Below are positions 7,809 through 33,412 of a stretch of 33,648 nucleotides of DNA, one piece after another. Source of the stretch: Burkholderiales bacterium (GTDB lineage: Bacteria; Pseudomonadota; Gammaproteobacteria; Burkholderiales; Casimicrobiaceae); assembly GCA_017989135.1 (NCBI GenBank), contig JAGNQL010000013.1, positions 1 through 33,648 of the forward strand, read 5' to 3'. A model generated the notes under the pieces. The model made no database searches. It was not told the origin of the DNA and saw only the letters and a list, made by a program, of their open reading frames with translations. Positions within the stretch are counted from its first letter, which is position 1, and each line of letters opens with the position of its first letter. Made by a program: the position numbers and the translations under genes.

Positions 7809-7819
7809 GTGCGTACAAC

Positions 7820-7937
7820 AGCTTTCTGCATTCAACGACTGCCCGGCGGTCGCTTCAGCCCGTTTTTACCTATAGTCGACTAGCGGAATAATCGGTCTGT
7901 AACGCCCACAAAGCCGTCGATCTACGTGAAAAGCCAT
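7820..7937. repeat. Intergenic repeat family, copy A
   Basis: One of five related intergenic sequences of about 120 bases. It begins CAGCTTTC and ends GAAAAGCCAT (imperfect terminal inversion). The left hairpin CGACTGCC/GGCGGTCG is 8 bp with one T-G pair, the core is ATAGTCGAC, and the right motif CTGTAACGCCC is degenerate. It lies between the SAF oxidoreductase and the S9 peptidase genes, ending about 145 bases before the peptidase start. Confidence 0.65.
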
Positions 7938-8082
7938 ATTCTCGTTAAAGATGTGCGCAGGGGCCGCCACGCCCACGCGACGAGCGCACAAGCGATGCGA
8001 TGATCGCGCCGGCGGAAGCGGTTGCGTCGCTACACTCCCTGTCATGTTGGACGCATCGTCCAGCCCGTTTTGTCGGAGCACT

Positions 8083-10125
8083 ATGTCCACCATCACGCAC
8101 CGCGCGCGCGAGTTCGTTGTAGCACGTTTCCTGCGCATCACGAGCGCCATCAGCTGCGCGCTGACCGTCCTTTCCGTTTCTGCGCAAAGCCCTGCCGCGC
8201 CTGCCGTCGCGACGCCAGCAACCGCAGTTGCGTACAAAACCGCCGCCGACATCCCCGTCGCTGACTTCTTCCGACTGCCGCGTTACTCGCAAATGGCGAT
8301 ATCGCCGGATGGCAAACGGGTGGCCGCGCTCGCGCCGGTGAATGGTCGAGACAACATCGCTGTGATTGATTTGGAAAAACGCAGCGCAGTAGTCATCACC
8401 CGTTTTGATCGCACCGACATCGTCGATCTACTGTGGGTCGACGGCAATCGAATCGTGTTTCGCACCGCCAACCGTGAGCTGGAAACGGGCGTACCGCAGT
8501 TTCAGGCGGCATTCGCAGTCGACGCGGACGGCGCCAACTTACGCAATCTCACGCCGGACAAGCGACAACGAGGGTTTCGAGTTTTCCGTCCGACGCACGA
8601 CGGAACGGGTGACCTGATCATCGGCAGATTCGTAGACAGCCGTACCAGCTCAAGCGTGTTGCGACTTGATACTCGAACAGGGCGCGCAACGTCGCTGACC
8701 TTCAAGAACCCTGGCGAGGTTAGCGGCTGGGCGATCGATAGCAAGAATCAAGTTCGTGGCGCGCTACGCGTCGAGCCGCGCGAATCGGCGGATGCGCCGC
8801 GCAAACGCAGTCTATGGGTTCGTGCAACAGGCGACGGTGACTGGGAAAAAATTCACGAATCCGGCGACGAACTGGAGGCGCTGCTGCCGTTGGCATTTGA
8901 CACCGACGACAAAACGCTGATCGTTTCCAGCCGCGCAGGCGGGGATCGTTCGGCGCTATATCGATTCGACATTGCTACGCGGAAACTCGGTGAAAAACTA
9001 TTTGAGCACCCGTGGCTCGACATCAACGGCGGATTGGTTCGTCATCCCAAAACACAAGCCGTACTCGGAGTTCGCTACAGCGCGGAGGTACCGAGGACGC
9101 ACTGGTTCGACGAGACGTACGCTGCACTGCAAAAGGCCGTGGACAGCGCGCTCACCAGCACCACTAACACCCTTTTTCCCGGCGACGAGTCATCGCGCAC
9201 AGTGGTAGTTTTCGCGCAATCCGCGACTGATGCTGGCACGTACTACTTGCTCAACACGGAAAAGCGTGCGCTCGAACGCGTCGCTGCAACGCGTGAGTGG
9301 TTGCCCAGTACGCTAATGCCCGAGCGCAAATTCGTCGCTTACAAATCTCGTGATGGCATGACGATCCCGGCGTGGCTTACTGTGCCGCGTGGCGTTGAAG
9401 CGAAGAACTTACCGCTCATCGTCCACATTCACGGCGGACCGTGGGCGCGCGGTTATCACGGCGTGCAGTGGGGCCGCTGGCCAAGCGCACAGTTCTTCGC
9501 CTCGCGCGGCTACGCGGTGTTGGAGCCCGAGCCGCGCGCTTCGACCGGCTTTGGTCGGAAACACTACCGTTCAGGATTCAAGCAGTGGGGCTTGACGATG
9601 CAAGACGACATCACCGACGGCGCGCTGCATCTGGCGAAAGAAGGTATCGTGAACAAGGATCGAATGTGCCTTTTTGGGGGAAGTTACGGCGGTTACGCGT
9701 CGCTGCAGGGGCTCGTGAAAGACCCGGACTTATGGCGCTGCGCGAGTTCATACATCGCGGTGACTGACCTAGAACTATTGCAAACCGTCGCGTGGTCGGA
9801 CATCGCGCGAGGCAGCGACTTCTATGAAACGGACTACAAATTTAGAGTGGGCGACTACGAAAAAGATCGCGCGCAGTTCGACGCGACTTCTCCCGCGAAA
9901 AACGCTGCAAAGATCAAGGCTGCCGTAATGCTAACGATGGGCGGGCAGGATCAGCGAGTGCCGCTCATCCACGGCACGGCCATGCGCGACGCCATGGAGA
10001 AGGCCGGGAAGCCGCTGGACTACAAGGTCTACGTCGACGAAGCGCACGGCTTCAACGCGAACGAAAACGTCACCGACTTCTACACGCGAACTGAGGCGTT
10101 TTTTGCGAAGCATTTGAAGCCGTAG
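8083..10125 (+). CDS. Secreted S9-family (prolyl oligopeptidase-like) serine peptidase
   Basis: A 680-residue exported peptidase. The N-terminus has a hydrophobic signal segment ending near SVSAQSPAAPA. It is followed by a roughly 370-residue beta-propeller region (repeats such as SPDGKRVAAL) and an alpha/beta-hydrolase domain. The hydrolase domain contains IHGGPWARGY (oxyanion-hole HGGP motif), the nucleophile elbow GGSYGGY (Ser534), GGQDQRVP (Asp623) and DEAHGF (His655), a complete catalytic triad. Its length fits S9C-type acylaminoacyl or dipeptidyl peptidases acting on short peptides in the periplasm. The start at 8083 is preferred over the longer frame from 7951 because a GGAG site lies four bases upstream and the signal peptide then sits at a normal position. 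A 274-base gap holding repeat copy A precedes it. Confidence 0.92.
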   Translation: MSTITHRAREFVVARFLRITSAISCALTVLSVSAQSPAAPAVATPATAVAYKTAADIPVADFFRLPRYSQMAISPDGKRVAALAPVNGRDNIAVIDLEKRSAVVITRFDRTDIVDLLWVDGNRIVFRTANRELETGVPQFQAAFAVDADGANLRNLTPDKRQRGFRVFRPTHDGTGDLIIGRFVDSRTSSSVLRLDTRTGRATSLTFKNPGEVSGWAIDSKNQVRGALRVEPRESADAPRKRSLWVRATGDGDWEKIHESGDELEALLPLAFDTDDKTLIVSSRAGGDRSALYRFDIATRKLGEKLFEHPWLDINGGLVRHPKTQAVLGVRYSAEVPRTHWFDETYAALQKAVDSALTSTTNTLFPGDESSRTVVVFAQSATDAGTYYLLNTEKRALERVAATREWLPSTLMPERKFVAYKSRDGMTIPAWLTVPRGVEAKNLPLIVHIHGGPWARGYHGVQWGRWPSAQFFASRGYAVLEPEPRASTGFGRKHYRSGFKQWGLTMQDDITDGALHLAKEGIVNKDRMCLFGGSYGGYASLQGLVKDPDLWRCASSYIAVTDLELLQTVAWSDIARGSDFYETDYKFRVGDYEKDRAQFDATSPAKNAAKIKAAVMLTMGGQDQRVPLIHGTAMRDAMEKAGKPLDYKVYVDEAHGFNANENVTDFYTRTEAFFAKHLKP

Positions 10126-10163
10126 GTGTACGCTGCGGTGGACTCATTCATCGGAAAATCACC

Positions 10164-10883
10164 GTGAACAACCAAAGTTTCTTCGCACAGGCGCAGATCA
10201 GCTTGCGTCGCGGCGTCCTGCTCGCGATGGTCGCCGCGATCATGCTTTTGACGTCCGGCTGCGCGGGCACAGTCGTCGTCGAATACTCGCTCGACGCTAG
10301 AGTGCAGCGCACTGCGGGGAACGGCGCGTCGCAACAAGCGACCGCGGATCAGTTTTCGGTGCAGGCCTTGTCGCCGGGCACTTCGGTCGCGTTTCCAGCG
10401 GTGAATTACAAGAGCGATGCGTTCGCGTGGAGCATTGGCACGAGCTCGCTCGGGTTGGGCGGCGCGGTGGAAAACTTCGCGTCGACGCCTCTGTGTTTTC
10501 GTCTCGACCAAGCGACGCTCTCGTCGAACTTTCATCCGCGCGAAGTCCCGCTTCGCGTGGCGACTGTGTTTCACATGATCTACGGCACGCCGCATCGACT
10601 CGGTTCGAATAGACCGTCGGATCGCAAATTATTTGTGCCGCAACCGATTTGCTTCTTGTCGAAGACTCCAGCCAATTTTTCATTCTGGCCCGATCTTTCG
10701 GAACTGTTCCCGAGCGAAAAAATGTTCAACGTTCGATGGCCCGAGGGCGAGACTAACCTCACGGAACGCGGCGTCGGCAATTGGATCAAGCTCACGCTGC
10801 CGATTGAGTACGACGGCAAACGGGAGCGACTAGAACTAACGCTCACAGCAAAAGACAGCAAGGCGCGGCTTTCGTACTACTGA
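10164..10883 (+). CDS. Putative lipoprotein of unknown function
   Basis: A 239-residue protein with a lipoprotein signal peptide: a positively charged start, a hydrophobic stretch, and the lipobox LTSGC with the acylated cysteine at residue 33. The mature part has no domain I recognise. It includes a segment TPLCFRLDQATLSSNFHPREVPL and a likely beta-rich C-terminus (WIKLTLPIEYDGKRERLELTLTA). It starts at a GTG 38 bases after the S9 peptidase stop, so the two may share a transcript. The membrane location is well supported; the role is unknown. Confidence 0.8.
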   Translation: MNNQSFFAQAQISLRRGVLLAMVAAIMLLTSGCAGTVVVEYSLDARVQRTAGNGASQQATADQFSVQALSPGTSVAFPAVNYKSDAFAWSIGTSSLGLGGAVENFASTPLCFRLDQATLSSNFHPREVPLRVATVFHMIYGTPHRLGSNRPSDRKLFVPQPICFLSKTPANFSFWPDLSELFPSEKMFNVRWPEGETNLTERGVGNWIKLTLPIEYDGKRERLELTLTAKDSKARLSYY

Positions 10884-10917
10884 GCCTCATGCGTCTGCAA
10901 TCCCAGTGGATTGTTTA

Positions 10918-11038
10918 AACGGCTTTTCGGCTCTACCGACTAGCCAGCGGTCGTTGCAGCGCGTTTATGACGTAAGTCGACTTACGTTCGAATGAAGCTG
11001 TAACGACCACTAGGCGGTCGCTGAGCGCAAAAAGCCAT
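10918..11038. repeat. Intergenic repeat family, copy B
   Basis: It begins AAACGGCTTTTCGG and ends AAAAAGCCATTC, giving good terminal inversion. The left motif CCGACTAGCCAGCGGTCG and the right hairpin AACGACC...GGTCGCT flank a core of GTAAGTCGACTTAC, itself an even palindrome. It sits between the 3' ends of the lipoprotein gene and the convergent radical SAM gene, so here it is not in a promoter position. Confidence 0.7.
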
Positions 11039-11130
11039 TCCTCACACTTTTAGGCGTCGCCTCAGCCGCGCTTTCGCAAATTGGGCGTGGGTTAGCGCGG
11101 CCGACGCCCCGCTGACCTGGGCCGAAAGCG

Positions 11131-12696
11131 TCAGTCGCTGCTCAACGTTGCGTCGCTCAGATGCCTGCGCTGCCGGGCGGGTGTGGCCTTGCGTGCGCCG
11201 GCGTTGGCGGTGTCATCGGACGCGGTGAAGCCGCGCGTCATGAACGATAGACGGCCTTTGCTGCCGCTGCGTTGATAGTCAGCAAGAATCGCGGCTTGCG
11301 CGGTCTCCACGGCGATCGCGCCATCGCTGATGAGCCAGCGATATACGAGATCAAACAAGCGCTCAAGTGCGATTTGATGTGTCGCGCCGGTTTCGGCGTA
11401 GAGCCAATCCGCGAGCGCGAGAAAGCGAGCGAACGCGCTCGTCGGCACCTCGGCAAGCACCAGCGGCAACGCTTGCGTGAAACGCCCTGAGTTACCAATC
11501 AAATCCCAGAACCGCGCGAAGCGGCTGATGCGCTGGACGTCAGCAAACGAGAGCTCGGTGTTCGAGAGAATGTTGTACGGCGGCTCCGGGTTGTAGCGCA
11601 TCGCGAACGCGTCGGTGTGGCGAATAATCGGTGTGCCGCGCAGCCGCTTCAACACACCGACCTGAATTTCATGCGGCCCCAAGCGCGCGAGCGTGTCGAA
11701 GCCAAGACCAAAACTCTCCAACGTTTCCGACGGCAACCCCGCGATCAAATCAACGTGCATGTGCGCGTGCGAATTTTCGTGCAGCCAGCGAATGTTTTCT
11801 TTCGCCTTGTCATTGTTTTGTTTGCGCGAAATGTGGCCCTGCACTTCGGGGTTCCACGTTTGAATGCCGATCTCAAATTGCAGCGTGCCTGCCGGAAATT
11901 TGGCAATCGTGTCTTTGAGTTTCTCGGGCAGATGGTCGGGCACTAATTCGAAGTGCGCGAAGCACGGGTCGTCGGGATGCGCGTTGATGCGCTCCAAGAA
12001 AAAATCAAGGATGGCGAGTGACGTCTTCACGTTCAAATTAAACGTGCGGTCAACAAACTTAAACGTGCGCGCACCTCGGTCATAGAGTTTCGCCATTTCG
12101 GCAAGAAAGCGCTCGGTGTTGAATGGCTCGGCCGTTTTATCAAGTGCGGACAAACAGAATTCGCACTTGAACGGACAACCGCGCGAGGCCTCCACGTAGA
12201 GATGCCGCCGCGCAATATCTTCGTCGGTGTAGTAGTCGTACGGCAATGCAATATCGTCAAGCTCGAAGGCTTCCCCGACATGCACTTTCATCAGCGGCTT
12301 CGGGCCATGTAACAGCGCCCGCGCGAGCTTGTTAAACGTCACATCGCCTTGCCCAGTCACGACGTAATCGGCGAGCTGATAAATGCGCTGCTCGGCGGTT
12401 TCGTAACTCACTTCCGGCCCGCCGATGACCACTTTAATTTGCGGCGCGACGGCCTTCAGCATCGCAATGAGCTTGGTCGTCTCTTCGACGTTCCAAATGT
12501 AGACGCCGAAGCCAATCGCCTTCGCGTCGAGCGCGAGCAATTGCTCCACGAGGACTTCGGTTTTGCTGCCGATCACAAACTCGACGATCCTCGTCTCGGC
12601 GCGAATGTCTTCGTCGAGATTGGCAAACAAATAGCGAAGCCCAAGCGACGCATGTGCGTAGCGGGCGTTGAGCGTGGAGAGAACGAGTGCGGGCAT
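11131..12696 (-). CDS. B12-binding domain radical SAM protein (DUF4080-type)
   Basis: A 521-residue enzyme with an N-terminal cobalamin-binding-like domain (residues about 1-135; AIGFGVYIWNVEET, VVIGGPEVSYE, YVVTGQGD). The radical SAM core follows, with the iron-sulfur site in SRGCPFKCEFC (Cys174, Cys178, Cys181). The C-terminal section with AIVLDFELIP-like FAHFELVPDHLPEK and FEIGIQTWNPEVQ is typical of this class, and the last roughly 150 residues match the DUF4080-like tail. Members are expected to use SAM, and possibly B12, in the cytoplasm. No reaction is established for this subgroup that I can name. It follows the bug gene on the same strand, but in the reverse order of transcription, with a 30-base gap (12697-12726). 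Confidence 0.87.
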   Translation of the reverse strand: MPALVLSTLNARYAHASLGLRYLFANLDEDIRAETRIVEFVIGSKTEVLVEQLLALDAKAIGFGVYIWNVEETTKLIAMLKAVAPQIKVVIGGPEVSYETAEQRIYQLADYVVTGQGDVTFNKLARALLHGPKPLMKVHVGEAFELDDIALPYDYYTDEDIARRHLYVEASRGCPFKCEFCLSALDKTAEPFNTERFLAEMAKLYDRGARTFKFVDRTFNLNVKTSLAILDFFLERINAHPDDPCFAHFELVPDHLPEKLKDTIAKFPAGTLQFEIGIQTWNPEVQGHISRKQNNDKAKENIRWLHENSHAHMHVDLIAGLPSETLESFGLGFDTLARLGPHEIQVGVLKRLRGTPIIRHTDAFAMRYNPEPPYNILSNTELSFADVQRISRFARFWDLIGNSGRFTQALPLVLAEVPTSAFARFLALADWLYAETGATHQIALERLFDLVYRWLISDGAIAVETAQAAILADYQRSGSKGRLSFMTRGFTASDDTANAGARKATPARQRRHLSDATLSSD

Positions 12697-12726
12697 GGCC
12701 GCAATTATCGGCGACTGCGAAGATTG

Positions 12727-13713
12727 CTACTCTACAGTGATGTTCGCCTGCTTGATCAAGCGCGCGTATTTCGCGAGTTGCGCTTTGGTGGCTACGCCTA
12801 GTTCAGCAGGCGTCGAGCCGCGCGGCGTGAGGCCCTGTGCGATCAAATGATTGCGCACTTCGGGATCGGCAAGCGCTTTGACGAGTTCCGCATTGAGGCG
12901 ATTGACGATGTCCTTCGGAGTGCCAGCGGGCGCCATCACGGCGAACCACGAATTGAATTCGAAGCCCGGCAAACCCGAATCACTGATCGTCGGCACATCA
13001 GGAAATTGTGGCAACGGCTTAGGCGTACTCACGCCGATCAGGCGGACTTTGCCGCCTTTGATCAATCCAAAAACGGTAGCGAGCCCCTGGAACGCGATTG
13101 GCACCTCACCCGAAGCGACGCCCAGTCCAGCCTGCGTTGCGCCTTTGTACGGAACGTGCATGAGCGTAATTCCGGCGCTGGACGCAAAGAGTGCGGCGGC
13201 AATGTGTTGCGGGCTTCCGTTGCCACCGGAGCCGTAGTTGATTTTTCCTGGCGCGGCCTTTGCGGCGGCGATGAGCGTTTCGGCATTTCGGTACGGCGAA
13301 TCGTTGTTCACCACAAGACCCCACTCAACCGTAGCAACCAACGATACGGGCTCGAAATCTTTGAGAATGTCCCACGTCATCTTGGTTTGTAAGTTAGGCA
13401 GCATGGTCATGATGCTGTCGTTGAAGCCACCAATCGTGTAGCCGTCCGGTGCGGCTTTCGCCACGCGATCCGCGCCAATCAACCCTGCTGCGCCGGGCTG
13501 GTTCTCGATCACGATGCCTTGCCCCATGTTTTGTGACATCTTTTGCGTGATGATGCGTGCAGCTGCGTCGACGGCGCTGCCCGCTGCAAGCGGTACGATC
13601 ATGCGGATCGGCTTGCTCGGATATACGGTTTGAGCATGCGCTGGCAGATATGGAGCGAGAGCTAAAAAGCCCATCGTGGCGAGTAAGGCGTAACGACGTG
13701 AGCGTGTGAGCAT
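12727..13713 (-). CDS. Bug-family periplasmic solute-binding protein (tripartite tricarboxylate transporter receptor)
   Basis: A 328-residue exported binding protein. The Sec signal peptide MLTRSRRYALLATMGFLALAPYLPAHA is cleaved before QTVYPSKPIRMIVP, the standard Bug mature start. The ligand-loop motifs PLAAGSAVDAAARI (variant of PFAAGGxxD), PGKINYGSGGNGSPQHIAA and MHVPYKGATQAG are present. Bug proteins capture carboxylates such as tricarboxylates, lactate-like acids or aromatic acids for a TctAB-type permease. No permease is nearby, which is common for the expanded Bug families of Burkholderiales. It lies 28 bases downstream of the Ldh-type dehydrogenase gene on the same strand, so the ligand may be that enzyme's substrate. 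Confidence 0.95.
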   Translation of the reverse strand: MLTRSRRYALLATMGFLALAPYLPAHAQTVYPSKPIRMIVPLAAGSAVDAAARIITQKMSQNMGQGIVIENQPGAAGLIGADRVAKAAPDGYTIGGFNDSIMTMLPNLQTKMTWDILKDFEPVSLVATVEWGLVVNNDSPYRNAETLIAAAKAAPGKINYGSGGNGSPQHIAAALFASSAGITLMHVPYKGATQAGLGVASGEVPIAFQGLATVFGLIKGGKVRLIGVSTPKPLPQFPDVPTISDSGLPGFEFNSWFAVMAPAGTPKDIVNRLNAELVKALADPEVRNHLIAQGLTPRGSTPAELGVATKAQLAKYARLIKQANITVE

Positions 13714-13741
13714 GATGAGTTTCTCGGTGGTGTTTTGATTG

Positions 13742-14791
13742 TTAAGACAAGAGCGGCGAAATGTTCAATTCGGCTGCAAGAGTGTCGAGCTGTTTGACGA
13801 GCGCGGGCGGAAGCGGGATACCGTCCTTCGCGTAGTTCCTGCGGCGCTGTTCGCTTTGCTCGCCGGGCAACCAAATGCGCTCCACGCCGTCGATACGCTC
13901 GCTCGCGCGCAGGTCACGGGCGAGCGTGTCAACACGTTGCTTGAACGCGTCGATATCGCCAAACGCGGAGAGATCAATCATGCATATCGCCTGTCCAGTA
14001 TTGGTGACGCTGGAGTCATCGTGATTGAAATCGATCACGTCTTTGCCCATTGCTGCCCCATTTAAAGTGCCCGCAAGCAATCCGACGATCAGCGCTAGAC
14101 CGTAGCCCTTGTATCCGCCGATTGGCAGCAAAAAACCCTCTTCCGCACGCTTTGGATCGAGCAGCGGCTTGCCTGCACGATCCATCATCCAGCCTTCTGG
14201 CATCATTTCGCCGCGCTGCGCTTTGGCCTTCACTTTGCCGTACGCAGCGACGGTTGTCGCCATGTCGAGCACGATCGGCCCCTCGTTCGCAGCAGGCACC
14301 GCCACCGCGATCGGATTGGTGGACAACAGCATATCCAGCCCGCCCCACGGCGGCAGATGGTTAGCGTTGCCAACAGCGAAATACAAACCGATCATGTCAT
14401 GCGGCAACGCCATGCGTGCATACAGCGACGCCGGCCCTGCGTGGTTGCTGAATTGCGAACCGACCCACGCGATACCTGTGACGCGCGCTTTCGCTGCTGC
14501 GATTTCCGCCGCGCGCTTCATCACCAAGTGGCCCATGCCGTTGTCGCCATTGAGGAGTGCCATGCCAGCGCGCTCTTGTACGACGGTGATACTCGGCTTC
14601 ACGTTGACGCCGCCCGCGCGAATGCGACGCGCGTACGGCACTAGACGAATAACGCCGTGTCCATCGGAGCCTTGCAAATCCGCCTCCGCCATCAACGCTC
14701 CAATGGTGCTCGCGTCGTCTGCTGGCAGGCCAAGCCGTTCGAACGCGCTTGCAATGAACTGTTGTAGGCGGTCAAAGGAAACGGCTTGCAT
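13742..14791 (-). CDS. Ldh family NAD(P)-dependent 2-hydroxyacid/imine oxidoreductase
   Basis: A 349-residue cytoplasmic oxidoreductase of the malate/L-lactate dehydrogenase (Ldh_2) superfamily, which includes sulfolactate, ureidoglycolate and delta-1-piperideine-2-carboxylate/pyrroline-2-carboxylate reductases. The family motif GSDGHGVIRLVPYARR contains the expected catalytic His45. Cofactor-domain segments NPIAVAVPAANEGPIVLDMATT and LLPIGGYKGYGLALIVGLLAG are clear. The family uses a non-Rossmann fold. The substrate cannot be chosen from the sequence alone. It is the first gene of a pair with the bug receptor, suggesting catabolism of an imported 2-hydroxy acid or related compound. Confidence 0.9.
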   Translation of the reverse strand: MQAVSFDRLQQFIASAFERLGLPADDASTIGALMAEADLQGSDGHGVIRLVPYARRIRAGGVNVKPSITVVQERAGMALLNGDNGMGHLVMKRAAEIAAAKARVTGIAWVGSQFSNHAGPASLYARMALPHDMIGLYFAVGNANHLPPWGGLDMLLSTNPIAVAVPAANEGPIVLDMATTVAAYGKVKAKAQRGEMMPEGWMMDRAGKPLLDPKRAEEGFLLPIGGYKGYGLALIVGLLAGTLNGAAMGKDVIDFNHDDSSVTNTGQAICMIDLSAFGDIDAFKQRVDTLARDLRASERIDGVERIWLPGEQSEQRRRNYAKDGIPLPPALVKQLDTLAAELNISPLLS

Positions 14792-14862
14792 GAGGGGCGT
14801 CGAATTTCTAGCTAGGTTCGACGTATTCTCGCAGCCTGCCCGTGCGCCGAACCTGCCGCTGT

Positions 14863-16119: not shown

Positions 16120-16155
16120 GCTGCGATTATCGGCGACTCGGCCCACGCCCGGAAA

Positions 16156-16176
16156 CTGCTCGCTTCGCGCGAGCAG
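16156..16176 (-). terminator. Hairpin downstream of the P-domain protein gene
   Basis: An 8-bp perfect stem (CTGCTCGC/GCGAGCAG) with a 5-base loop. Read on the minus strand it is followed by TTTCC only, so it is a weak candidate for a Rho-independent terminator. It lies between the end of the 17396-16206 gene and the rhlE start, where it could end the exported-protein operon. Confidence 0.4.
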
Positions 16177-16205
16177 GAATGGTGCGCAGACCGCGTATAC
16201 CGAGA

Positions 16206-17396: not shown

Positions 17397-17422
17397 GATT
17401 TTTCTTCGCTCTTAGTGTGAAA

Positions 17423-19358: not shown

Positions 19359-19375
19359 CACATCAAGCCGAGCGA

Positions 19376-23694: not shown

Positions 23695-23833
23695 GTGCTT
23701 GTTTAATCGCGGCGATTTCACTAGGATTTGAATCAACGCACCACCTTCCCGCACGCAGCGCTGGATAATCCGTAACAATCTCATTTCTTAGGGTGGGTCC
23801 CACGCCGGCGCGTTGGGACTCTCATTTCCGCTC

Positions 23834-25420: not shown

Positions 25421-25435
25421 GCGCATCCGAACGCA

Positions 25436-25783
25436 ATGGATTCGCTCAAGGGATTTGCGTGGCTCCTTGCCGCGCAGTCGCTTGGCGAAGGCATCGCGCG
25501 GCTTACGCATGCGCCATTGCCCGGCCCAGTCATCGGACTGGTCATCCTGTTGCTAGCGCTCAACTTTTCGTTCGTACAAGCGCCGGTTCATGCGGCGGCC
25601 GAAGCGCTGCTGACACACCTGTCGCTGCTCTTTGTGCCAGTCGGCGTTGGCGTAATGGTGCACACAGGACTCATCGCCGAGTACGGCGTGCGCATGCTGG
25701 TGGTCATCGTGCTTGCGACGTGGATTGGCCTCGCAGTCACGGCACTTGCGCTGCGTGCGTTCACACCTACTGACAGAGACTGA
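25436..25783 (+). CDS. lrgA: CidA/LrgA family holin-like membrane protein
   Basis: A 115-residue membrane protein with about four hydrophobic segments and the family motifs LPGPVIGLVILLLAL and HLSLLFVPVGVGVMVHTGLI. CidA/LrgA proteins act with an LrgB/CidB partner in the inner membrane, in control of murein hydrolase activity and, in some species, pyruvate uptake. The next gene is exactly that partner, nine bases downstream. It follows the GGT-like gene closely and is probably co-transcribed. Confidence 0.92.
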   Translation: MDSLKGFAWLLAAQSLGEGIARLTHAPLPGPVIGLVILLLALNFSFVQAPVHAAAEALLTHLSLLFVPVGVGVMVHTGLIAEYGVRMLVVIVLATWIGLAVTALALRAFTPTDRD

Positions 25784-25792
25784 GCGCGAACG

Positions 25793-26506
25793 ATGCAGAA
25801 CTTTGTTGAACTCTGGGTTTATCTCTCCGCGACACCGCTTTTTGGACTGACCGCGACGATCGTGACCTACGTGCTTGCACAGACCGTCTACCTGCGGCTC
25901 AATCAAGCGCCGTGGGCGAATCCGGTGTTGTGGACGGTGCTGGTGTTGGCAGCGCTCCTAACCGTGAGTGGCACGCCATACCCGACGTACTTTGCGGGTG
26001 CGCAGTTCATCCACTTCTTGCTTGGTCCGGCGGTAGTCGCGTTGGCGTGGCCGCTGTGGCAGCGACGATTTGAGGTTCGTCGACGCGCAGTAGCGATCCT
26101 GCTCGCCGCCCTGCTCGGCGGAACGGTCGCAGCGTTGAGCGCCGTGGGCATCGGCTACGCGCTTGGGCTGCCGACGGAAGTGATCATGTCGCTCGCGCCG
26201 AAATCCGTGACGGCACCTGTTGCGATGGGTGTCGCCGAAAAGATCGGCGGAATTCCGGCGTTGGCTGCGGTGTTTGCTGTGCTAACCGGACTCGTTGGCG
26301 CGGTGAGTGGCAAGTATCTGTTTGACGCGCTCGGCATCCATTCCCTCGCAACACGCGGCTTCGCACTCGGCACGGCGGCGCATGGAATCGGTGCCGCTCG
26401 TGCACTTCAAGTCAATGCAGACGCGGGCGCGTACGCCGGATTAGCGCTGGGCTTACAAGTGCTTTTGGCTTCGTTTCTCATGCCATTGGCGTATCGATTG
26501 TTTTAG
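25793..26506 (+). CDS. lrgB: LrgB family membrane protein
   Basis: A 237-residue inner-membrane protein with six or seven hydrophobic segments. Typical LrgB/CidB segments are FAGAQFIHFLLGPAVVALAWPLW, SLAPKSVTAPVAMGVAEKIGG and ATRGFALGTAAHGIGAARA. It is the partner of the preceding LrgA. Length is normal for the family. Confidence 0.95.
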   Translation: MQNFVELWVYLSATPLFGLTATIVTYVLAQTVYLRLNQAPWANPVLWTVLVLAALLTVSGTPYPTYFAGAQFIHFLLGPAVVALAWPLWQRRFEVRRRAVAILLAALLGGTVAALSAVGIGYALGLPTEVIMSLAPKSVTAPVAMGVAEKIGGIPALAAVFAVLTGLVGAVSGKYLFDALGIHSLATRGFALGTAAHGIGAARALQVNADAGAYAGLALGLQVLLASFLMPLAYRLF

Positions 26507-26554
26507 CGGCGGCGCGGCGGGGGTTTTGCCCGTAATTACAGACGAATCTTAGGA

Positions 26555-26650
26555 ATATTCACGAGGGGTTACAGCAACAATATGCTTTTGCCTTCCGCTG
26601 TAAGTAAGCCCGACGAAACCGGGCTCGTAGCGACGAATCCCCGTGAATAT
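26555..26650 (+). promoter_or_regulatory. Leader inverted repeat covering the diguanylate cyclase start
   Basis: ATATTCACG (26555-26563) pairs exactly with CGTGAATAT (26642-26650), and after one bulged A a GGG at 26565-26567 pairs with CCC at 26639-26641, giving 12 pairs. Inside the loop, AGCCCG (26607-26612) and CGGGCT (26620-26625) form a second hairpin. The right arm contains the GTG at 26643 and overlaps the ATG at 26649, so a folded transcript would hide the translation start. It does not match the c-di-GMP-I or -II riboswitch consensus that I know. Confidence 0.45.
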
Positions 26651-27752
26651 GAATCGTCCGCTCTCCCCCTCCCTCCTACCCGGCTCGCAGCTCCGACGCG
26701 CCAGCGACAGGCCGTCGGCGAGACACTGGCGCGTGGACGTGTTTCGTTTGCTGGTGCCCATCGGCATCATCGCCTGCGTCGACGACGCCATCATGGCACC
26801 GACCAGCGGCATGCGTATCGCGCCGCTCGTGTCAGCAGCATTTTTGCTTGTGCTTTGGGTTGCTTCCTTACTGCCGGGCGTGTCGGCGAATCGACGAATG
26901 GCGCGCTTCGGTGACACCATGGTCTTGTGCGCCTTACTGGCTGCGGTTGCGGTGTACGCGTGGATGCTCGTGGTCGAACGAGACACCGCGGCATTGAAAG
27001 GCATGCAGCGCATGGCGCTATGGACGCCGTTGCTTGCGCTCTATTCGAGCTTGATGCTTGGCCGCCGACCGCGGCTCGGCATTCTCGCCGTCGTCGGTTT
27101 GATCGCGTTGATATTGGCGTTTCACGCCTACGCCATGCAATCGTTTGGTCTACCCATACTGCCCGATACGGTCATCAATTTCGTGGCGATGACCATCACC
27201 ACGGCCGGCACGGCAATGATCTTCGAACGCTACCGCAGAGGCGTGTCGGACACGTTCGCGCGGCTGCAAGTGGCGGAAGCGCAATCGATGACCGACGCGC
27301 TCACCGCGTTGCCGAACCGCCGGAAGTTTCGGCTCGACAGCGCGAGTCGAGTCATCGGTTCACGCCCACATTGTTTGATCGTGCTCGACCTTGATGAATT
27401 CAAGCGCGTCAACGACTCGCTCGGACATCAGGCGGGCGACCATATTCTGAAAGCATTCGGTGACGCCGTCGCCGATCAGCTGCCGGACGCGGCGACGCTG
27501 TACCGCTGGGGCGGCGAAGAATTTGCGATTCTGGCCTTCATGCAGCGCACCGACGCGAAGGTCCTCGCCGAGTCGTTGCGCCGACATATCGAAAAGATGG
27601 TGCTGCCGCTGGATGTGCACATCACCGCGAGCTTCGGCGTAACCGAAATCCTGCCAGAGGAATCGGTGGACGCGGCATTTCAACGTGCTGACGCGGCGCT
27701 CTACGAAGCCAAGCACGCGGGCCGCAATCGTTCGGTGTTTCGCGCGCCGTAG
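26649..27752 (+). CDS. Membrane-bound diguanylate cyclase (GGDEF)
   Basis: A 367-residue enzyme that makes c-di-GMP from two GTP. The N-terminal part (about 30-195) has six hydrophobic segments and a short periplasmic loop, an MASE-like sensor region. The GGDEF domain starts at MTDALTALPNRRKF and contains DLDEFKRVNDSLGHQAGDH and the active-site GGEEF (residues 288-292), a catalytically competent variant. The inhibitory I-site position (RxxD, five residues before GGEEF) reads PDAA, so product feedback through that site is not expected. The start is ATG 26649 or the GTG two codons upstream; neither has a clear ribosome site. Confidence 0.93.
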   Translation: MNRPLSPSLLPGSQLRRASDRPSARHWRVDVFRLLVPIGIIACVDDAIMAPTSGMRIAPLVSAAFLLVLWVASLLPGVSANRRMARFGDTMVLCALLAAVAVYAWMLVVERDTAALKGMQRMALWTPLLALYSSLMLGRRPRLGILAVVGLIALILAFHAYAMQSFGLPILPDTVINFVAMTITTAGTAMIFERYRRGVSDTFARLQVAEAQSMTDALTALPNRRKFRLDSASRVIGSRPHCLIVLDLDEFKRVNDSLGHQAGDHILKAFGDAVADQLPDAATLYRWGGEEFAILAFMQRTDAKVLAESLRRHIEKMVLPLDVHITASFGVTEILPEESVDAAFQRADAALYEAKHAGRNRSVFRAP

Positions 27753-27765
27753 TTAAACGACGGGT

Positions 27766-27872
27766 GTTGTAGGCGACGACTTGGCGTCGCTTGGTGGCTT
27801 ACATGAGTTGTAGGCGCAGACTCGGCCGAGCTTATTCGTTGCGCTGAGCGACGCCAAGTCGTCGCCTACAAC
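27766..27872. repeat. Inverted repeat element with 26-bp perfect arms
   Basis: Left arm 27766-27791 and right arm 27847-27872 are exact reverse complements over 26 bases, separated by 55 bases. Each arm is itself a small hairpin (GCGACG/CGTCGC). The spacer holds a third related unit: GTTGTAGGCG is repeated at 27807 and followed by the palindrome CTCGGCCGAG. It sits between the diguanylate cyclase and nitroreductase genes and may serve as a terminator or as a small mobile repeat. Confidence 0.8.
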
Positions 27873-27970
27873 CGGAACATCGTGCCGTTTCTGATTGCAA
27901 AACTAATGACGCCCCGCGCGAGGCATGATGGAATGCACACCACTTGTCTCATTCTTCTCAGGATTCCCGC

Positions 27971-28696
27971 GTGACCGTCAATCAAGTCAACACCGTCATT
28001 CAAGACCCCGCCAGCGTCGATGCGGCCATCGAGAGCCGCTTCTCGGCGCGCGCGTTTCTCCCAACGCCCGTACCGCGCGACACCATAGCGCACATCCTTA
28101 AGGTCGCCGCGCGCGCGCCGAGCGGAACCAATACACAGCCGTGGCGCGTGTATGTCGTGCAAGGCGCAGCACGCAATCAGATCGTCACCGAAGTCTGCGC
28201 CGCGCACGACGCAATTCGCGCGAACCCCGCGCTCGCGAGTGAGTACAGCGAAAGCTACGACTACTACCCCGAAAAATGGGTGAGCCCGTTCATTGATCGC
28301 CGCCGCGAAAACGGCTGGAGTTTGTACGGTCTGCTCGGCATTACGAAGGGCGACAAAGACGCGATGCACGCGCAGCATCAGCGCAATTTCAAATTCTTCG
28401 ACGCGCCGGTCGGCCTCTTCTTCACCATCGATCGCGTGATGGGCCGCGGCAGCCTCGTCGACTGCGGCATGCTCATCGAAAACGTCATGGTCGCCGCCCG
28501 CGCGCAAGGCCTACACACCTGCCCGCAAGCCGCGTGGAACGGCTTCTCGAAAATCATCGCCCCGATCATCGGCGCAGGCGACAACGAACTCATGGTCTGC
28601 GGAATGTCCCTAGGCTTCGCCGATACCAGCGCCGTCGTCAACACATTCCACACGCCGCGCGTGGCGGTCGAGGACTTTACGCGCTGGGTCGGGTAA
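27971..28696 (+). CDS. Nitroreductase family protein (FMN-dependent)
   Basis: A 241-residue flavin enzyme that reduces nitroaromatics, quinones or similar acceptors with NAD(P)H. The N-terminal signature SRFSARAFLPTPVPRDTI is followed by the FMN-contact motif RAPSGTNTQPWRVYVV. The C-terminal part has AARAQGLHTCPQAAW and NELMVCGMSLGFAD, as in the family. The true substrate is unknown. The GTG at 27971 is chosen because an AGGA site stands seven bases upstream; a longer frame from a TTG at 27944 is less likely. The gene is alone on its strand and is followed by repeat copy C. Confidence 0.9.
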   Translation: MTVNQVNTVIQDPASVDAAIESRFSARAFLPTPVPRDTIAHILKVAARAPSGTNTQPWRVYVVQGAARNQIVTEVCAAHDAIRANPALASEYSESYDYYPEKWVSPFIDRRRENGWSLYGLLGITKGDKDAMHAQHQRNFKFFDAPVGLFFTIDRVMGRGSLVDCGMLIENVMVAARAQGLHTCPQAAWNGFSKIIAPIIGAGDNELMVCGMSLGFADTSAVVNTFHTPRVAVEDFTRWVG

Positions 28697-28715
28697 GCGC
28701 CTGACGTGACGGTTA

Positions 28716-28842
28716 ATGGCTTTTTAGCGCTAACGACCGGTGGGTGGCGCTTTTAGCGATTTTTACCGCTTAGTCAATAAACTACAAAATCGCGCTGCAA
28801 CGACCGCCCGCTGGTCGTTTAGACTAAAAAGGTGCAAAGCCA
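28716..28842. repeat. Intergenic repeat family, copy C
   Basis: It starts ATGGCTTTTTAGCGC and ends TGCAAAGCCA. The left motif TAACGACC is followed by a degenerate right half; the core TTAGTCAATAAAC is A+T-rich; the right hairpin AACGACC/GGTCGTT has a perfect 7-bp stem. It closely resembles copy E (shared ATGGCTTTT, GCTTAGTCAATAAAC and CAACGACCGCCCGCTGGTCG blocks). It lies about 80 bases upstream of the first delta-60 gene. Confidence 0.75.
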
Positions 28843-28921
28843 CATGCGCTTCGTTTAGGCACATCGCGCGACCGCGCTCAGTTCGCGGCACAATGCCTCA
28901 TTCGCTCGCTGAACACGAACT

Positions 28922-30586
28922 ATGTCAAAGCCCGCTCTCGCCAAGTTACGTGCGCCATGCTCCGGCAGCTACGCTATTGCCCTACTGAGACGCTGCGCCG
29001 CCCTCGCGGTTTGCCGCTTTCGACAAGCCGCCTCCGCCCTGACATGTGTCGTCGCGGTCTCAGCCGCGCAAGCGCAAGACCCGATTCCAGGTAGTTTGGA
29101 TCTCAGTTTTGGGGGTGGCACGGGCAGGATCGCCAATCTTGCCATCGGTACGGGAAATGACGCCGTCCGCGCACTCGGGCTTCAACCCGACGGCAAAATC
29201 GTGCTCGCGGGTGAGTGTCTCGATGGGAACTACCACATCTGCGTTGCCCGCCTCAACGACGATGGCACTCTCGACACGAGCTTTGATGGACCGGACGGCA
29301 ACGGCAACGGCAAGTTCATTTTGCGCATCAGCGCAAACGGTGGCGGTGCACGCACGGTGGTTCTGCAACCCGACGGCAAGATCGTGCTTGCCGGGTATTG
29401 CATCGAGGAGAACTATCACTTCTGCATAGCCCGCCTCAACGTCGATGGCACATTCGACCTCAGCTTCAATGGACCGGCTGGCAACGGCGGTGGCAGGTTC
29501 GTCTTGCCGATGACTGTTTACGGTGACGTCGCCGCCGCCGTCGCGCTGCAGCCCGATGGCAAAATTCTGTTGACCGGTCAGTGCACTGGAAGCACGAATC
29601 AAGACTTCTGCGCCGCCCGACTCAGACCTGACGGCACGCTCGACAAGAGCTTCGCTGGTCCAAGTGGCGATGGCGGTGGCAAATTTCTGTGGTCCGTCGG
29701 CACAGGTTATGACTACGCTACCGCGCTAGCGCTGCAACCGGATGGCAAGATCGTGCTAGCGGGTTATTGTGGCGCAAGCACCAATGCAGACTTCTGCTTG
29801 ACCCGCCTCAGTACTGACGGGACACTAGACACAAGCTTTCAAGGCCCGGGCGGCACAGGCGACGGCAAGTTTCTACTTCCCATCGGTACGGGCAACGGGT
29901 ACGCCACAGCCATCGCGATGCAACCCGATGGAAAGATCATGCTTGCGGGATATTGCGGCGACGGAATCGTTCACTTCTGTGTTGCCCGTCTCAGGTCGGA
30001 CGGCTCGCTCGACACAAGCTTCGGTGGTCCAAGTGGCAATGGCGACGGCAGGTTTCTGCTCCCCATCGGTACGGGCAACGGGTACGCCACAGCCATCTCA
30101 CTGCAATCCGATGGAAAGATCGTGTCGGCGGGGGAGTGTCTCTCGAACGGCAAAAGCTACTTTTGCACAGCTCGCCTCAACACTGACGGGTCGCTCGACA
30201 CAAGCTTTGATGGCTCGAGCGGCTCCGCTAACGGCGGCTTCCTCTTGCCCATTGGCCCTTACATGGACCGTGGCACCACCATAGCAGTCCAGCCCGACGG
30301 TAAGATCGTGGTGGCGGGTGAATGCGGGAACGGCACCAACAACGATTTCTGCGTCGCCCGCCTCCACGGCGGACCGTTTGGCGCGAAGCAATGTTCGCTT
30401 GACATTGACGGCGACGGCAAGGTGTCGGCGGGCACGGACATGTTGATCGGCACCCGCGTGGCGCTTGGTATGACGGGCAGCGCTGTACTCAGCGGGATCG
30501 TGTTCGCGCCGCACGCGACGCGCACGACGTGGCCTGACATTCGCACGTACCTCGTGAGTCAGTGCGGAATGGTAATCAGACCTTGA
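28922..30586 (+). CDS. Secreted delta-60 repeat beta-propeller protein with C-terminal dockerin-like module (paralog 1)
   Basis: A 554-residue exported protein. An unusually long signal region (about 50 residues) ends VVAVSAAQA before the mature start QDPIPGSLDLSFGGG. Seven delta-60 type repeats follow, each of 55-62 residues: a core LQPDGKIVLAG, a cysteine right after the AG (such as AGEC or AGYC), a second cysteine in the next strand (FCVARL), then DGTLDTSF and a Gly/Asn-rich turn. Seven repeats and split terminal strands fit a seven-bladed propeller. The C-terminal 65 residues (490-554) begin CSLDIDGDGKVSAGTDML, one dockerin-like Ca loop, and end SQCGMVIRP. The ligand is unknown; delta-60 proteins are often surface or extracellular. 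It is the first of three paralogs in a row. Confidence 0.9.
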   Translation: MSKPALAKLRAPCSGSYAIALLRRCAALAVCRFRQAASALTCVVAVSAAQAQDPIPGSLDLSFGGGTGRIANLAIGTGNDAVRALGLQPDGKIVLAGECLDGNYHICVARLNDDGTLDTSFDGPDGNGNGKFILRISANGGGARTVVLQPDGKIVLAGYCIEENYHFCIARLNVDGTFDLSFNGPAGNGGGRFVLPMTVYGDVAAAVALQPDGKILLTGQCTGSTNQDFCAARLRPDGTLDKSFAGPSGDGGGKFLWSVGTGYDYATALALQPDGKIVLAGYCGASTNADFCLTRLSTDGTLDTSFQGPGGTGDGKFLLPIGTGNGYATAIAMQPDGKIMLAGYCGDGIVHFCVARLRSDGSLDTSFGGPSGNGDGRFLLPIGTGNGYATAISLQSDGKIVSAGECLSNGKSYFCTARLNTDGSLDTSFDGSSGSANGGFLLPIGPYMDRGTTIAVQPDGKIVVAGECGNGTNNDFCVARLHGGPFGAKQCSLDIDGDGKVSAGTDMLIGTRVALGMTGSAVLSGIVFAPHATRTTWPDIRTYLVSQCGMVIRP

Positions 30587-30612
30587 TGCGCTCGGTGTTA
30601 GCCGTGAACACA

Positions 30613-30732
30613 CAGCAACTTTTCGTCGCGAACGACCGTCGGACGGTCGGCATCGCGCATTCTTCTCAGAGTCAACGTATGAATTTCTTGCGCTGTAATG
30701 ACCGCTTGGCGGTCGCTGGCATGCAAAAGCCA
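30613..30732. repeat. Intergenic repeat family, copy D
   Basis: The ends are CAGCAACTTTTCG and GCAAAAGCCA. Two clean hairpins are present: CGACCGT/ACGGTCG with a 3-base loop and GACCGC/GCGGTC with a 3-base loop. The core is AGAGTCAACG. Stem bases differ from other copies but pair, which supports selection for, or descent from, a folded form. It ends about 90 bases upstream of the second delta-60 gene. Confidence 0.72.
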
Positions 30733-30824
30733 ATCCAGTCCGTGCGCGATACTGTCAACACAACGGCAGCTCGCGCCACAATGCACACAATTTCTCTAAG
30801 ACGTAGAACAAGCGTTAGTCCCTC

Positions 30825-32471
30825 ATGAAAAAGCACACACACCAATCCGACGCAAATGCTCATAGCGTCGCATCAGGCCACGCCACGACGCGCAGGCTGC
30901 GCCAGATTCGACGAGGTCTTGGTGCGCTGTTTCTCGCCGCCGTTGCTGCCACGCTCACCCACGCGCAAGACCCAATTCCGGGGAGTTTCGATCTCAGTTT
31001 TGGTGGCGGCACCGGCAAGATCGGCAACCTTGCGGTCGGGACCAGTCATGACAGTGGCCGCGCAGTCGCGTTGCAGCCGGATGGCAAGATCGTATTAACA
31101 GGCGATTGCCGCGACGGAACGCGCGTTGACTTCTGCGTCGCCCGCCTCAATGCTGACGGCACACTCGACGCTACGTTCAATGGACCGAGTGGCACTAACG
31201 GCAATGGCAAATTTCTCTTGCCTATCGGCGTGCAGAATGACTACGCCTACACACTCGCTCTACAGCCCGACGGCAAAATCGTGCTGGGGGGCGGTTGCTC
31301 CAACATCTTAGACTTCGATTTCTGCATCACGCGGCTTAACACCGACGGGTCGTTTGATGCGAGCTTTGTCGGACCGAATGGCAACGGCAAATTCCTGTTA
31401 CCGATTGGCACGAACGATGATGTTGTGGGTGCCATCGCTCTGCAACCCGACGGCAAGATCGTGTTGGCGGGGACTTGTTCGACCAGCAGCGTTAGCAATT
31501 TCTGCGTCGCCCGCTTGAACGCCGATGGCACACCTGACACTAGCTTTAGCGGTCCTGACGGCAATGGCAGCGGTCGATTTCTCTTACCGAGCAGCAACAT
31601 TTCCGAATCCGCTCGCGCGCTCGCGCTGCAAGCTGACGGCAAGATCGTAATCGCCGGAGATTGCGGCGATGGCATCAACCAAGACTTTTGCGTCGTGCGG
31701 TTGAATGCCGATGGCACTCTTGACTTGGACTTTGATGGTCCCAGCGGCATCGGTAATGGCAAGTTCTCGCTTGCAATTGGCACTGGGAGCGACTCGGTGC
31801 GAGCCGTCACACTACAACCCGACAGTAAGATCGTATTGGTGGGAGGCTGTCAAAACGCTGCGAACGGCACGAATGACTTTTGCGTGGCTCGGCTAAACCC
31901 TAACGGCGCACTCGACGCAACCTTTGGCGGAGCGAGCGCTAACGGTACGCTTCTGTTGCCAGTTAGCGCGGGCTATGACTACGCTTACGCTGTCGCGTTG
32001 CAAGCTGACGGCAAGATACTACTCGCGGGGGACTGCGAGAGCGATTTTTGCGCCGCTCGCCTTAACCCGGACGGCTCGCTTGACACGAGTTTCGATGGCC
32101 CCACTGGCATCGGCAACGGCAAGGTCGTCCTGCCGATTGGCACAGGGCTCGACCTTGGACGAAGCGTGGCGATACAGCCAAACGGCATGATTGTGTTAGC
32201 CGGCCAATGCTCCAACGGTGCCAACATCGATTTCTGCGTCGCCCGCCTCCACGGCGGCCCATTTGGCGCGAAGCAATGTTCGTTTGATCTAGACGGCGAC
32301 GGCAAGGTATTTGCCACGACCGACATGTTGATCGGAACACGGGTGGCGCTTGGGATGACGGGTAGCACTGTTTTGAACGGCATCACCTTTGCGGCGCACG
32401 CAGCACGCAAAACGTGGCCGGAGATTCGCACGTTTCTGGTGAGCCAGTGCGGGATGGCTATCGCACCGTAG
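30825..32471 (+). CDS. Secreted delta-60 repeat beta-propeller protein with C-terminal dockerin-like module (paralog 2)
   Basis: A 548-residue paralog of the previous gene. The signal region is again long with a basic start (MKKHTHQSDANAHSV, then RRLRQIRRGLGALFLAAVA) and ends THAQ before DPIPGSFDLSFGGG. Seven delta-60 repeats carry the QPDGKIVL core; variants QADGKIV, QPDSKIV and QPNGMIV occur in repeats 4-7. Every repeat has a cysteine pair, spaced by 4 to 10 residues (from GDCESDFC to GGCQNAANGTNDFC). The C-terminal 65 residues are almost the same as in paralog 1 (CSFDLDGDGKVFATTDML to SQCGMAIAP), and the FCVARLHGGPFGAKQC junction is identical, while the repeats differ more. This points to conservation or gene conversion of the end module. 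Confidence 0.9.
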   Translation: MKKHTHQSDANAHSVASGHATTRRLRQIRRGLGALFLAAVAATLTHAQDPIPGSFDLSFGGGTGKIGNLAVGTSHDSGRAVALQPDGKIVLTGDCRDGTRVDFCVARLNADGTLDATFNGPSGTNGNGKFLLPIGVQNDYAYTLALQPDGKIVLGGGCSNILDFDFCITRLNTDGSFDASFVGPNGNGKFLLPIGTNDDVVGAIALQPDGKIVLAGTCSTSSVSNFCVARLNADGTPDTSFSGPDGNGSGRFLLPSSNISESARALALQADGKIVIAGDCGDGINQDFCVVRLNADGTLDLDFDGPSGIGNGKFSLAIGTGSDSVRAVTLQPDSKIVLVGGCQNAANGTNDFCVARLNPNGALDATFGGASANGTLLLPVSAGYDYAYAVALQADGKILLAGDCESDFCAARLNPDGSLDTSFDGPTGIGNGKVVLPIGTGLDLGRSVAIQPNGMIVLAGQCSNGANIDFCVARLHGGPFGAKQCSFDLDGDGKVFATTDMLIGTRVALGMTGSTVLNGITFAAHAARKTWPEIRTFLVSQCGMAIAP

Positions 32472-32482
32472 CGGGGGATCTC

Positions 32483-32511
32483 GGGTTGCAGTGATGCTGG
32501 TTTTGCAACCC
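32483..32511 (+). terminator. Hairpin after the second delta-60 gene
   Basis: GGGTTGCA and TGCAACCC form a perfect 8-bp stem with a 13-base loop, 12 bases after the stop at 32471. No T-run follows, so it is only a possible transcript end or 3' stabilising hairpin. Confidence 0.35.
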
Positions 32512-32639
32512 AGCCTAGCTTGCTTGCCGCTCGCCTCGAACAGCTGGCAGAGTACAAGCCAGCCGCGACATTCACGCCGCGCACCCCGACCGAGCCGCTA
32601 CATTTGCGATATGCCGCATGTCGTGGCTTGGGAAGTACG

Positions 32640-33092
32640 ATGATCATCAAGAAGAATCTGGTGCAAGCCGAACGGGCCGAGCGCGAGTCCTTTGGCGTTT
32701 CGGACACCGTGCGGTTGTCGGAGGTGGGTGGGCTTTCGCAGTTTGGCGCCTACGTGCAGACGCTGCATCCCGGCGCGCGATCTTCCAACAATCACTGGCA
32801 TGAGAATGAGGACGAGTTCTTGCTCGTGCTGTCCGGTGAGGTGACCGTTACCGAGGGGGCCGATGTTCAGGTGTTGCACGCGGGTGATTCGGCCTGCTGG
32901 CCTGCGGGCGTGCCGAACGCACATCACGTGTCCAATCGGTCAAGCGAGCCGTGCTCGTACGTGATCGTCGGCACGCGCGTGAACCAAGACGTTTGCCACT
33001 ATCCGGATACCGGGCGAACGCTGCACACGGACGGCGCGGCTTGGCGTCTGCTGGAGGCCGATGGGCAACTGTTCAAGTCCGGCGTATTTTGA
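32640..33092 (+). CDS. Cupin domain protein
   Basis: A 150-residue single-cupin protein. Motif 1 reads NHWHENEDEFLLVLSGEVTV, giving the metal ligands His-x-His and Glu, and motif 2 is GDSACWPAGVPNAHHVSN, with His as the last ligand. It probably binds a divalent metal. Cupins of this small type include sugar-isomerase-like and dioxygenase-like members, and the activity cannot be read here. The ATG at 32640 is preferred, with GGGAAG upstream, over a longer frame from 32520. It interrupts the row of delta-60 paralogs on the same strand. Confidence 0.83.
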   Translation: MIIKKNLVQAERAERESFGVSDTVRLSEVGGLSQFGAYVQTLHPGARSSNNHWHENEDEFLLVLSGEVTVTEGADVQVLHAGDSACWPAGVPNAHHVSNRSSEPCSYVIVGTRVNQDVCHYPDTGRTLHTDGAAWRLLEADGQLFKSGVF

Positions 33093-33412
33093 ATTCGGCA
33101 CGACCGATGCCTAAGCATTCATTCAACCGGACGCACTGCTGCGGCGGTGCGGTTCGCCTCTCGGACACTTCCGTGTGTGCGTTAATGGCTTTTAAGCGCT
33201 AACGACAGCTGGGCGGCGGTTGCAGCCACTTTCACGGCTTAGTCAATAAACGACAAAATCTCGCTACAACGACCGCCCGCTGGTCGGTCAGGCATAAAAG
33301 TCGTATCGGGCGTCAAGACAATATTTTTACGACTTGGCGATGTTTCGCCGTACATCTCGTTTCTCAAGACACAACACACCCACTCGGTACAGCGCAACCA
33401 CCGGAGACACTC
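33093..33412. other. Intergenic region holding repeat copy E
   Basis: A 320-base non-coding gap between the cupin gene and the third delta-60 gene. Repeat copy E occupies its centre. The last 100 bases are A+T-richer (CAATATTTTTACG) and should contain the promoter of the third delta-60 gene, but I see no convincing hexamer pair. Confidence 0.6.
33185..33303. repeat. Intergenic repeat family, copy E
   Basis: It starts ATGGCTTTTAAGCGCTAACGAC, like copy C, and ends GGCATAAAAGTCG, a weaker end. The core is GGCTTAGTCAATAAACGAC and the right hairpin is CGACC/GGTCG. It ends about 110 bases upstream of the third delta-60 gene. Confidence 0.72.

Follow-up and report, generated by a model that had tools for sequence, protein, structure and literature searches.

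A genus-wide family of ~118-bp dyad-symmetric intergenic elements as candidate composite protein-binding sites

Five copies of an intergenic repeat at one locus

The stretch of DNA considered here (the window) comprises the 33,648 nucleotides at positions 1 to 33,648 of contig JAGNQL010000013.1, from a member of the Casimicrobiaceae (Burkholderiales bacterium, GenBank assembly GCA_017989135.1). It carries five copies, A to E, of a ~118-bp repeat with mirror symmetry, found at the positions at which an earlier note, made from the sequence alone, had placed them. Their cores, as delimited with a model of the family, are 117-118 bp long:

7819..7936, plus strand: copy A; inner motifs 7834-7854 and 7901-7921, centre 7874-7881; profile score 76 bits
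10920..11037, minus strand: copy B; inner motifs 10935-10955 and 11002-11022, centre 10975-10982; 87 bits
28717..28834, plus strand: copy C; inner motifs 28732-28752 and 28799-28819, centre 28772-28779; 92 bits
30616..30732, plus strand: copy D; inner motifs 30631-30651 and 30697-30717, centre 30670-30677; 65 bits
33186..33303, plus strand: copy E; inner motifs 33201-33221 and 33268-33288, centre 33241-33248; 82 bits

Copy A starts 10 bp past the stop codon of the gene ending at 7808, while copy B, whose best model fit is in the reverse orientation, lies between convergent genes. Copies C, D and E are interleaved with genes for DUF5122 beta-propeller proteins, two of which are neighbours (28922-30586 and 30825-32471), with a third similar start near 33536, at the window end. 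Copies C and E are 82-84% identical, the sole close pair found, and their location beside similar DUF5122 genes suggests that a copy was carried along in a local duplication. No transposase was matched in a Pfam scan (E 0.001) of 28 of the 29 called window genes, i.e. all except the one truncated at the window end; the earlier note had likewise reported none.

Anatomy of the element

The general properties of the family are best seen in an alignment (A2) of 43 of 46 copies from the window's own assembly (G000; 331 contigs, 79.66% complete, 3.35 Mb assembled), from which a partial copy in locus L022 and two insertion-bearing copies in L032 are excluded. The alignment is almost gap-free across 118 columns and mirror-symmetric about its centre, and copy length is nearly fixed, mostly 116-118 bp. 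Each arm consists of an end motif, CAGCTTT (mirror AAAGCTG), an inner motif and one half of the common central palindrome AGTCGACT; the inner motif in G000 is itself a 21-bp palindrome, AACGACCGCC-n-GGCGGTCGTT, present once per arm. Motif columns reach 2.0 bits, several of them being invariant, and linker columns drop as low as 0.02-0.2 bits. The spacing of the motifs is nearly fixed, with a linker sequence that is free and saturated. Conservation at the edges runs outward for ~3 bases in G000 (TAA..TTA) and ~2 in G012, one of the relatives' genomes (all designated by G-numbers). Since copies in A2 were oriented by their better score, the greater strength of the 'right' arm is in part a matter of choice.

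Size and range of the family

A search of the whole genome, which the earlier note had proposed as a check, found many further copies of what is a dispersed palindromic family, located between genes and for the most part shortly past a gene end. By blastn, G000 gave 39 matches with copy C and 48 with copy B, some of which correspond to both strands of one copy, and a model built from A2 (R1) gave at least 150 strand-matches, all with E below 4e-19. With the 43-copy profile, 44 copies scored above 25 bits in 395 kb of G000, and the reversed-sequence control, run on the full 795-kb sample, gave a single match of 10.7 bits, so that the copies stand clearly apart from background and far above chance. 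Extrapolation leads to ~373 copies in the 3.35 Mb of G000, a figure somewhat inflated by contig choice: most sampled contigs, and also the G005 start, were chosen among long ones known to hold a copy, the effect on density being greatest for G001 (88 kb sampled).

Among 40 genomes (G000 and 39 relatives), R1 matches at E 0.001 were found in 10, all of them among the 17 genomes of the same genus, and in several of these the matches were few and weak; the 23 genomes outside the genus gave none. The model describes this species' type of element, so that distant variants outside the genus would be missed. A full-length copy in L317 (1048-1162; 56.8 bits to the G011 profile), ~340 bp away from a stop-containing IS630 fragment, indicates that the family is present in G013 as well. 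A strict pattern scan of genome contigs, in which records close to the window's genome were possibly omitted, returned two assemblies only, JAEUPL01 (Burkholderiales bacterium MAG-224) and JAKPSO01 (Pseudomonadota JPNA_metabat.25). Viral contigs gave no match to the strict pattern and plasmids none to copy C, and these searches accordingly gave no sign of a phage or plasmid origin. No description of this 118-bp family was found in the literature searched, whose coverage excluded most subscription journals.

Variants with the same frame in related species

A strict search for the frame only (ends, centre and spacing) detected same-frame elements in G015, G001, G011 and G005, and gave no match in reversed sequence or in 400 kb of G002 and G007. 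The ends and the GTCGA centre are common to these elements, and the inner motifs mostly differ from the G000 type: the G015 consensus is built around TGCATAGGGGCTAG and its mirror, and that of G005 and G011 around GGGCT and its mirror. G011 is mixed, part of its copies having a G000-type inner motif, and G005 also gave a few strong R1 matches. Among over-represented intergenic 8-mers, AGTCGACT ranks first in G005, G011 and G012, and fifth in G000.

The radical-SAM gene next to copy B provides an example of one place followed across species. It is followed by a copy in G000, G003 and G012, in G003 at the same place as copy B; in G015 the same gene is followed by a same-frame element with another inner motif, and in G001 also by an element of the other inner type, as judged by eye and a weak score.

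Placement relative to genes

Copies are dispersed between chromosomal genes; integron attC sites, for comparison, belong to tandem cassette arrays with an intI gene. With genes called by a simple custom script, 9 of the 164 copies mapped in six species run into a called gene, and none does so by more than 27 bp. Tandem gene pairs flank 84 of them, convergent pairs 50 and divergent pairs 27, with three at contig edges. Convergent boundaries are enriched (50/247 versus 111/1423 for the rest; odds ratio 3.0, p 3e-8), and tandem copies are found nearer the upstream stop in 68 of 84 cases. Since divergent boundaries carry copies too (in G000, three among 45), gene ends are a preference rather than a rule.

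In G012 (contigs C15, C18 and C33), copies are more evenly spaced than expected from random intergenic placement (coefficient of variation 0.66 versus 0.94, P 0.0012), and even spacing is not seen in G000 (0.88 versus 0.90, P 0.47); regular chromosomal spacing is, therefore, not claimed.

Folding and the absence of covariation

The location of copies after stop codons and between convergent genes would suit an RNA-level element of the 3' untranslated region, i.e. a hairpin that stabilizes or terminates transcripts. Folding is consistent with such a role to some extent: in comparison with mononucleotide shuffles, transcripts fold more stably (mean z -4.1 in G000 and between -1.2 and -3.1 in four further species). 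Against dinucleotide shuffles, a clear excess is seen for window copies B (z -6.2), C (-3.5) and E (-2.7), a weak one for D (-1.4) and none for A (+0.6). However, conserved symmetric motifs alone are expected to produce a folding excess over shuffles. In place of the two small hairpins of the plan put forward in the earlier note, the minimum free energy structure of each of the five window copies, folded singly, is one long imperfect hairpin.

The same note had described stem bases that vary but still pair, which is not seen family-wide. In A2, a copy's own arms pair in 1483 of 2534 cells, as compared with 1477.3 (standard deviation 18.2) when arms are shuffled among copies (z 0.31), and the small hairpins gave z values of -0.02 and 1.11. 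Covariation is likewise absent in the G012 (z 0.79) and G015 (z 1.00) subsets, the cross-species test being confined to copies of modal ungapped length (26, 24 and 12). As a positive control, 10% artificial complementary pairs were detected at z 4.8. Furthermore, the RNAalifold covariation term is -0.02, and at gathering scores Rfam has no match in the window. The G015 inner motif, as judged from its consensus, lacks self-complementarity, and the frame is maintained all the same. A conserved RNA structure, the earlier note's other proposal, was rejected on the RNAalifold term and the lack of covariation in three species. An intrinsic terminator was also rejected: a scan of two stretches found 8 sites versus 7.3 expected and 6 versus 5.4, of which only two, on the minus strand, lie at element edges. 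With 27 of 161 copies between divergent genes in addition, we regard the 3'-end RNA element as unlikely.

Age, orthologous sites and turnover

Whether the copies are recent or old, and what happens to them once in place, was addressed by comparisons within and between genomes. In G000, 72 distinct copies were compared, out of 86 detections in loci that partly overlap; their median nearest-neighbour identity is 0.68, with C/E alone above 0.74. In G012, the maximum among 48 of 53 copies (those of at least 110 bp and 40 bits) is 0.68. Whole-assembly searches with copies B and C returned, C/E excepted, matches of at most 75% identity over at least 95 bases. Recent spread is, thus, not seen among these 72 and 48 copies.

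In the closest relative, G003, the element is present at all seven readable orthologous G000 sites, and in these seven pairs (gapped alignment, six pairs and one more) motif columns are identical in 239 of 294 cases (81%) and linker columns in 76 of 180 (42%; p 3.5e-18). Five sites were unreadable in G003, namely copy A (whose G003 contig stops within the first bases of the element), C82:121588 (a partial copy at a contig end, with a 77% flank), C4:63472 (a copy beside a flank of 69 bp), C82:114383 (no copy, with a 67% flank) and C47:7915 (repeat flank); at C82:83557, the right flank was found further along the G003 contig. The difference between motifs and linkers bears on the possibility that the copies are neutral fossils of a single old insertion burst with no present role. 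Saturated linkers and the decay of single copies, such as copy C in G003, are what such fossils would show, but equal decay of motifs and linkers would then be expected, and this explanation appears to us very improbable.

At longer range the picture is one of turnover. By gene adjacency, G000 and G012 share two sites and two are found in G000 only, a stricter set giving two shared and none unshared; many looser G012 flank matches have no copy, and adjacencies without a copy exist in G012, with flanks too diverged for exact boundaries to be set. At four places shared by G000 and G012, identity is 143/168 in motifs and 29/104 in linkers, the linker value being that of unrelated copies; these places may also reflect independent insertion in the same intergenic region. 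G000 and G015 share one site, with two private to each side. These comparisons indicate that sites persist over close divergence, with their motifs selected in place, and are turned over across longer distances.

Relation to mobile elements

Dispersed short palindromes are usually taken as mobile hairpins or RNA structures, and the earlier note had likened the family to a miniature inverted-repeat transposable element (MITE) or a bacterial interspersed mosaic element (BIME). A population of the REPIN or MITE kind would consist of a non-autonomous element very rarely copied in trans, the motifs being the sites of the enzyme and the inner types tracking it; motif conservation would then reflect that a copy which loses these sites can no longer spread. 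Several features speak for it: the inverted-repeat doublet of near-fixed length, the many extragenic copies, the species-specific types, the turnover of occupancy and the G000 edges reaching TAA..TTA; REPINs show similar behaviour (PMC3116915, PMC8049555).

The signs of transposition are, however, missing where they were sought. No target-site duplication was found among lengths of 2-9 bp, with three offsets tried in each of two species (42 tests, z at most 2.06); duplication of TA alone would be indistinguishable from the conserved edge. Isolated intergenic half-elements are absent from 1.94 Mb of six species, in which one 11.5-bit match lies inside a gene, and the sample contains no recent copies. 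No transposon or transposase with the same ends was found in searches that covered the Y1 and IS630 families.

As for the Y1 transposases (REP-associated tyrosine transposases, RAYT), three of 30 loci (from 44 listed matches) have a copy within ~1.5 kb, against a base rate of 24-49% for any called gene in six species. In G000, one Y1 match lies 186 bp from a copy (L312) and two lie ~1.2 kb away (L284; contig C38, the latter additional to the 30 loci), which would favour a mobile population. Counted over G000 alone, three of four judgeable matches (C254, C90 and C38, but not C39) have a copy within ~1.3 kb; as the base rate is 42%, this proximity is not taken as a link. A RAYT-linked REPIN was rejected for lack of any excess near Y1 transposases. 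The IS630 (DDE_3) transposase is absent from G000, G003, G012, G005 and G011, all of which bear the element, and present in G015, G001 and G006 among others, with two of eight loci (L317 and L319) near a copy, as at the base rate. An IS630 MITE was rejected because of the missing duplication, the absence of the gene from five element-bearing genomes and the lack of a proximity excess.

Retention of motifs in place at orthologous sites is also not predicted by mobility alone, and a REPIN- or MITE-like population is in our judgement a serious possibility, albeit a minority one. With respect to the earlier comparison, the dispersed palindromic family is real and BIME-like in its layout only, and the MITE assignment is not established, given the lack of duplications, recent copies, half-elements and a tied transposase, and the conservation in place. 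The family is probably of mobile origin, and its founding spread and the rare gain of sites would probably have occurred by transposition, perhaps through an enzyme other than the Y1 and IS630 transposases.

Likeness to known repeat families

ERIC (IRU, RU-1), the 127-bp enterobacterial repeat, is an imperfect palindrome of similar size that is likewise multi-copy and intergenic. Target-site duplication and TA termini are reported for ERIC in PMC2229807; duplication is not seen here, and the two families are set apart by this description rather than by sequence alignment. Correia (NEMIS) elements and other short MITEs have in common with the present family that they are short, inverted-repeat, multi-copy and intergenic, and differ from it by the target-site duplication, the matching insertion sequence and the recent copies, which the present family lacks in our sample. 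GTAG-tagged repetitive extragenic palindromes (REP) and BIMEs share palindromic motifs arranged as inverted pairs after genes, but the ~118-bp element is without the tag.

REPINs come closest, with an inverted doublet of near-fixed length, conserved arms and a free spacer, many extragenic copies and species-specific types. Their population behaviour is similar (PMC3116915, PMC8049555), and compensatory changes are said to be common in REPINs in the first of these papers. The 118-bp family, in contrast, has no GTAG tag (in A2, by eye, arms end in CAGCTTT/AAAGCTG), no compensatory changes and no Y1 excess, and it has a conserved centre. It resembles REPINs in population behaviour and fails three REPIN-defining features as tested, and it is best regarded as lying outside the REPIN family.

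A possible composite site read as double-stranded DNA

Motifs held in place while linkers change freely point to protein-binding sites rather than to folding RNA or freshly jumping DNA. With motifs kept locus by locus, linkers randomized and no pair covariation, it seems that the symmetry is recognized in the double-stranded DNA. We consider it an even chance that these genus-wide ~118-bp dyad-symmetric elements are composite binding sites, kept in place, for a candidate DNA-binding protein or complex. Such a protein would bind the double-stranded motifs symmetrically, through an end, an inner and a central half-site per arm; its preference for the inner site would have changed between species, and its role at gene ends might be, for example, in chromosome organization, supercoil handling or termination.

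Several points weigh against a binding site. Only seven orthologous pairs are available, and the G003 orthologue of copy C has lost its inner motifs, with ends and centre kept. Occupancy differs between species, so that sites are gained and lost. Divergent boundaries carry copies at a rate (27/246) above that of all tandem ones (84/1177, operon-internal boundaries included). Finally, a change of inner motif at hundreds of sites is hard to reconcile with a static regulator, and a mobile family that follows its transposase could accommodate it more readily.

A more ambitious extension of the binding-site interpretation, which we hold only tentatively and think rather improbable, is a chromosome-wide network of several hundred protein-bound dyad sites in which the inner half-site preference has switched between species of the genus and the end motif, centre and spacing have stayed nearly fixed. 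The site that stays after the radical-SAM gene while its inner motif differs (G000, G003 and G012 versus G015 and G001) would be an instance. Provided more generally that the symmetry is recognized in double-stranded DNA, these genomes would form a natural series with the same frame and different inner motifs, in which one could directly test how a shift in binding specificity is tracked by hundreds of genomic sites.

Other repeats in the same genomes

The window also contains a GTAG-tagged REP pair at 27766-27791 and 27847-27872 (GTAGGCGACGACTTGGCGTCGC, a 26-bp perfect inverted repeat), with a related copy at 27807-27833. This REP/BIME family, distinct from the 118-bp one, has seven matches in 361 kb of G000 (at most three mismatches). 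G002 and G007, in which searches for the 118-bp family gave no match, may contain repeats of other kinds, with ATCTGTGT over-represented among intergenic 8-mers in G002, and ATTGGGCG and GGGCGATA in G007. Two further repeats were noticed on contig C82 of G000: one of ~270 bp (84262-84530; L084 4262-4530) has multiple matches in G003 and G012, and the other, of ~62 bp (104880-104942; L085 4880-4942), has ~10 matches in G003 at 82-95% identity and looks more recent.

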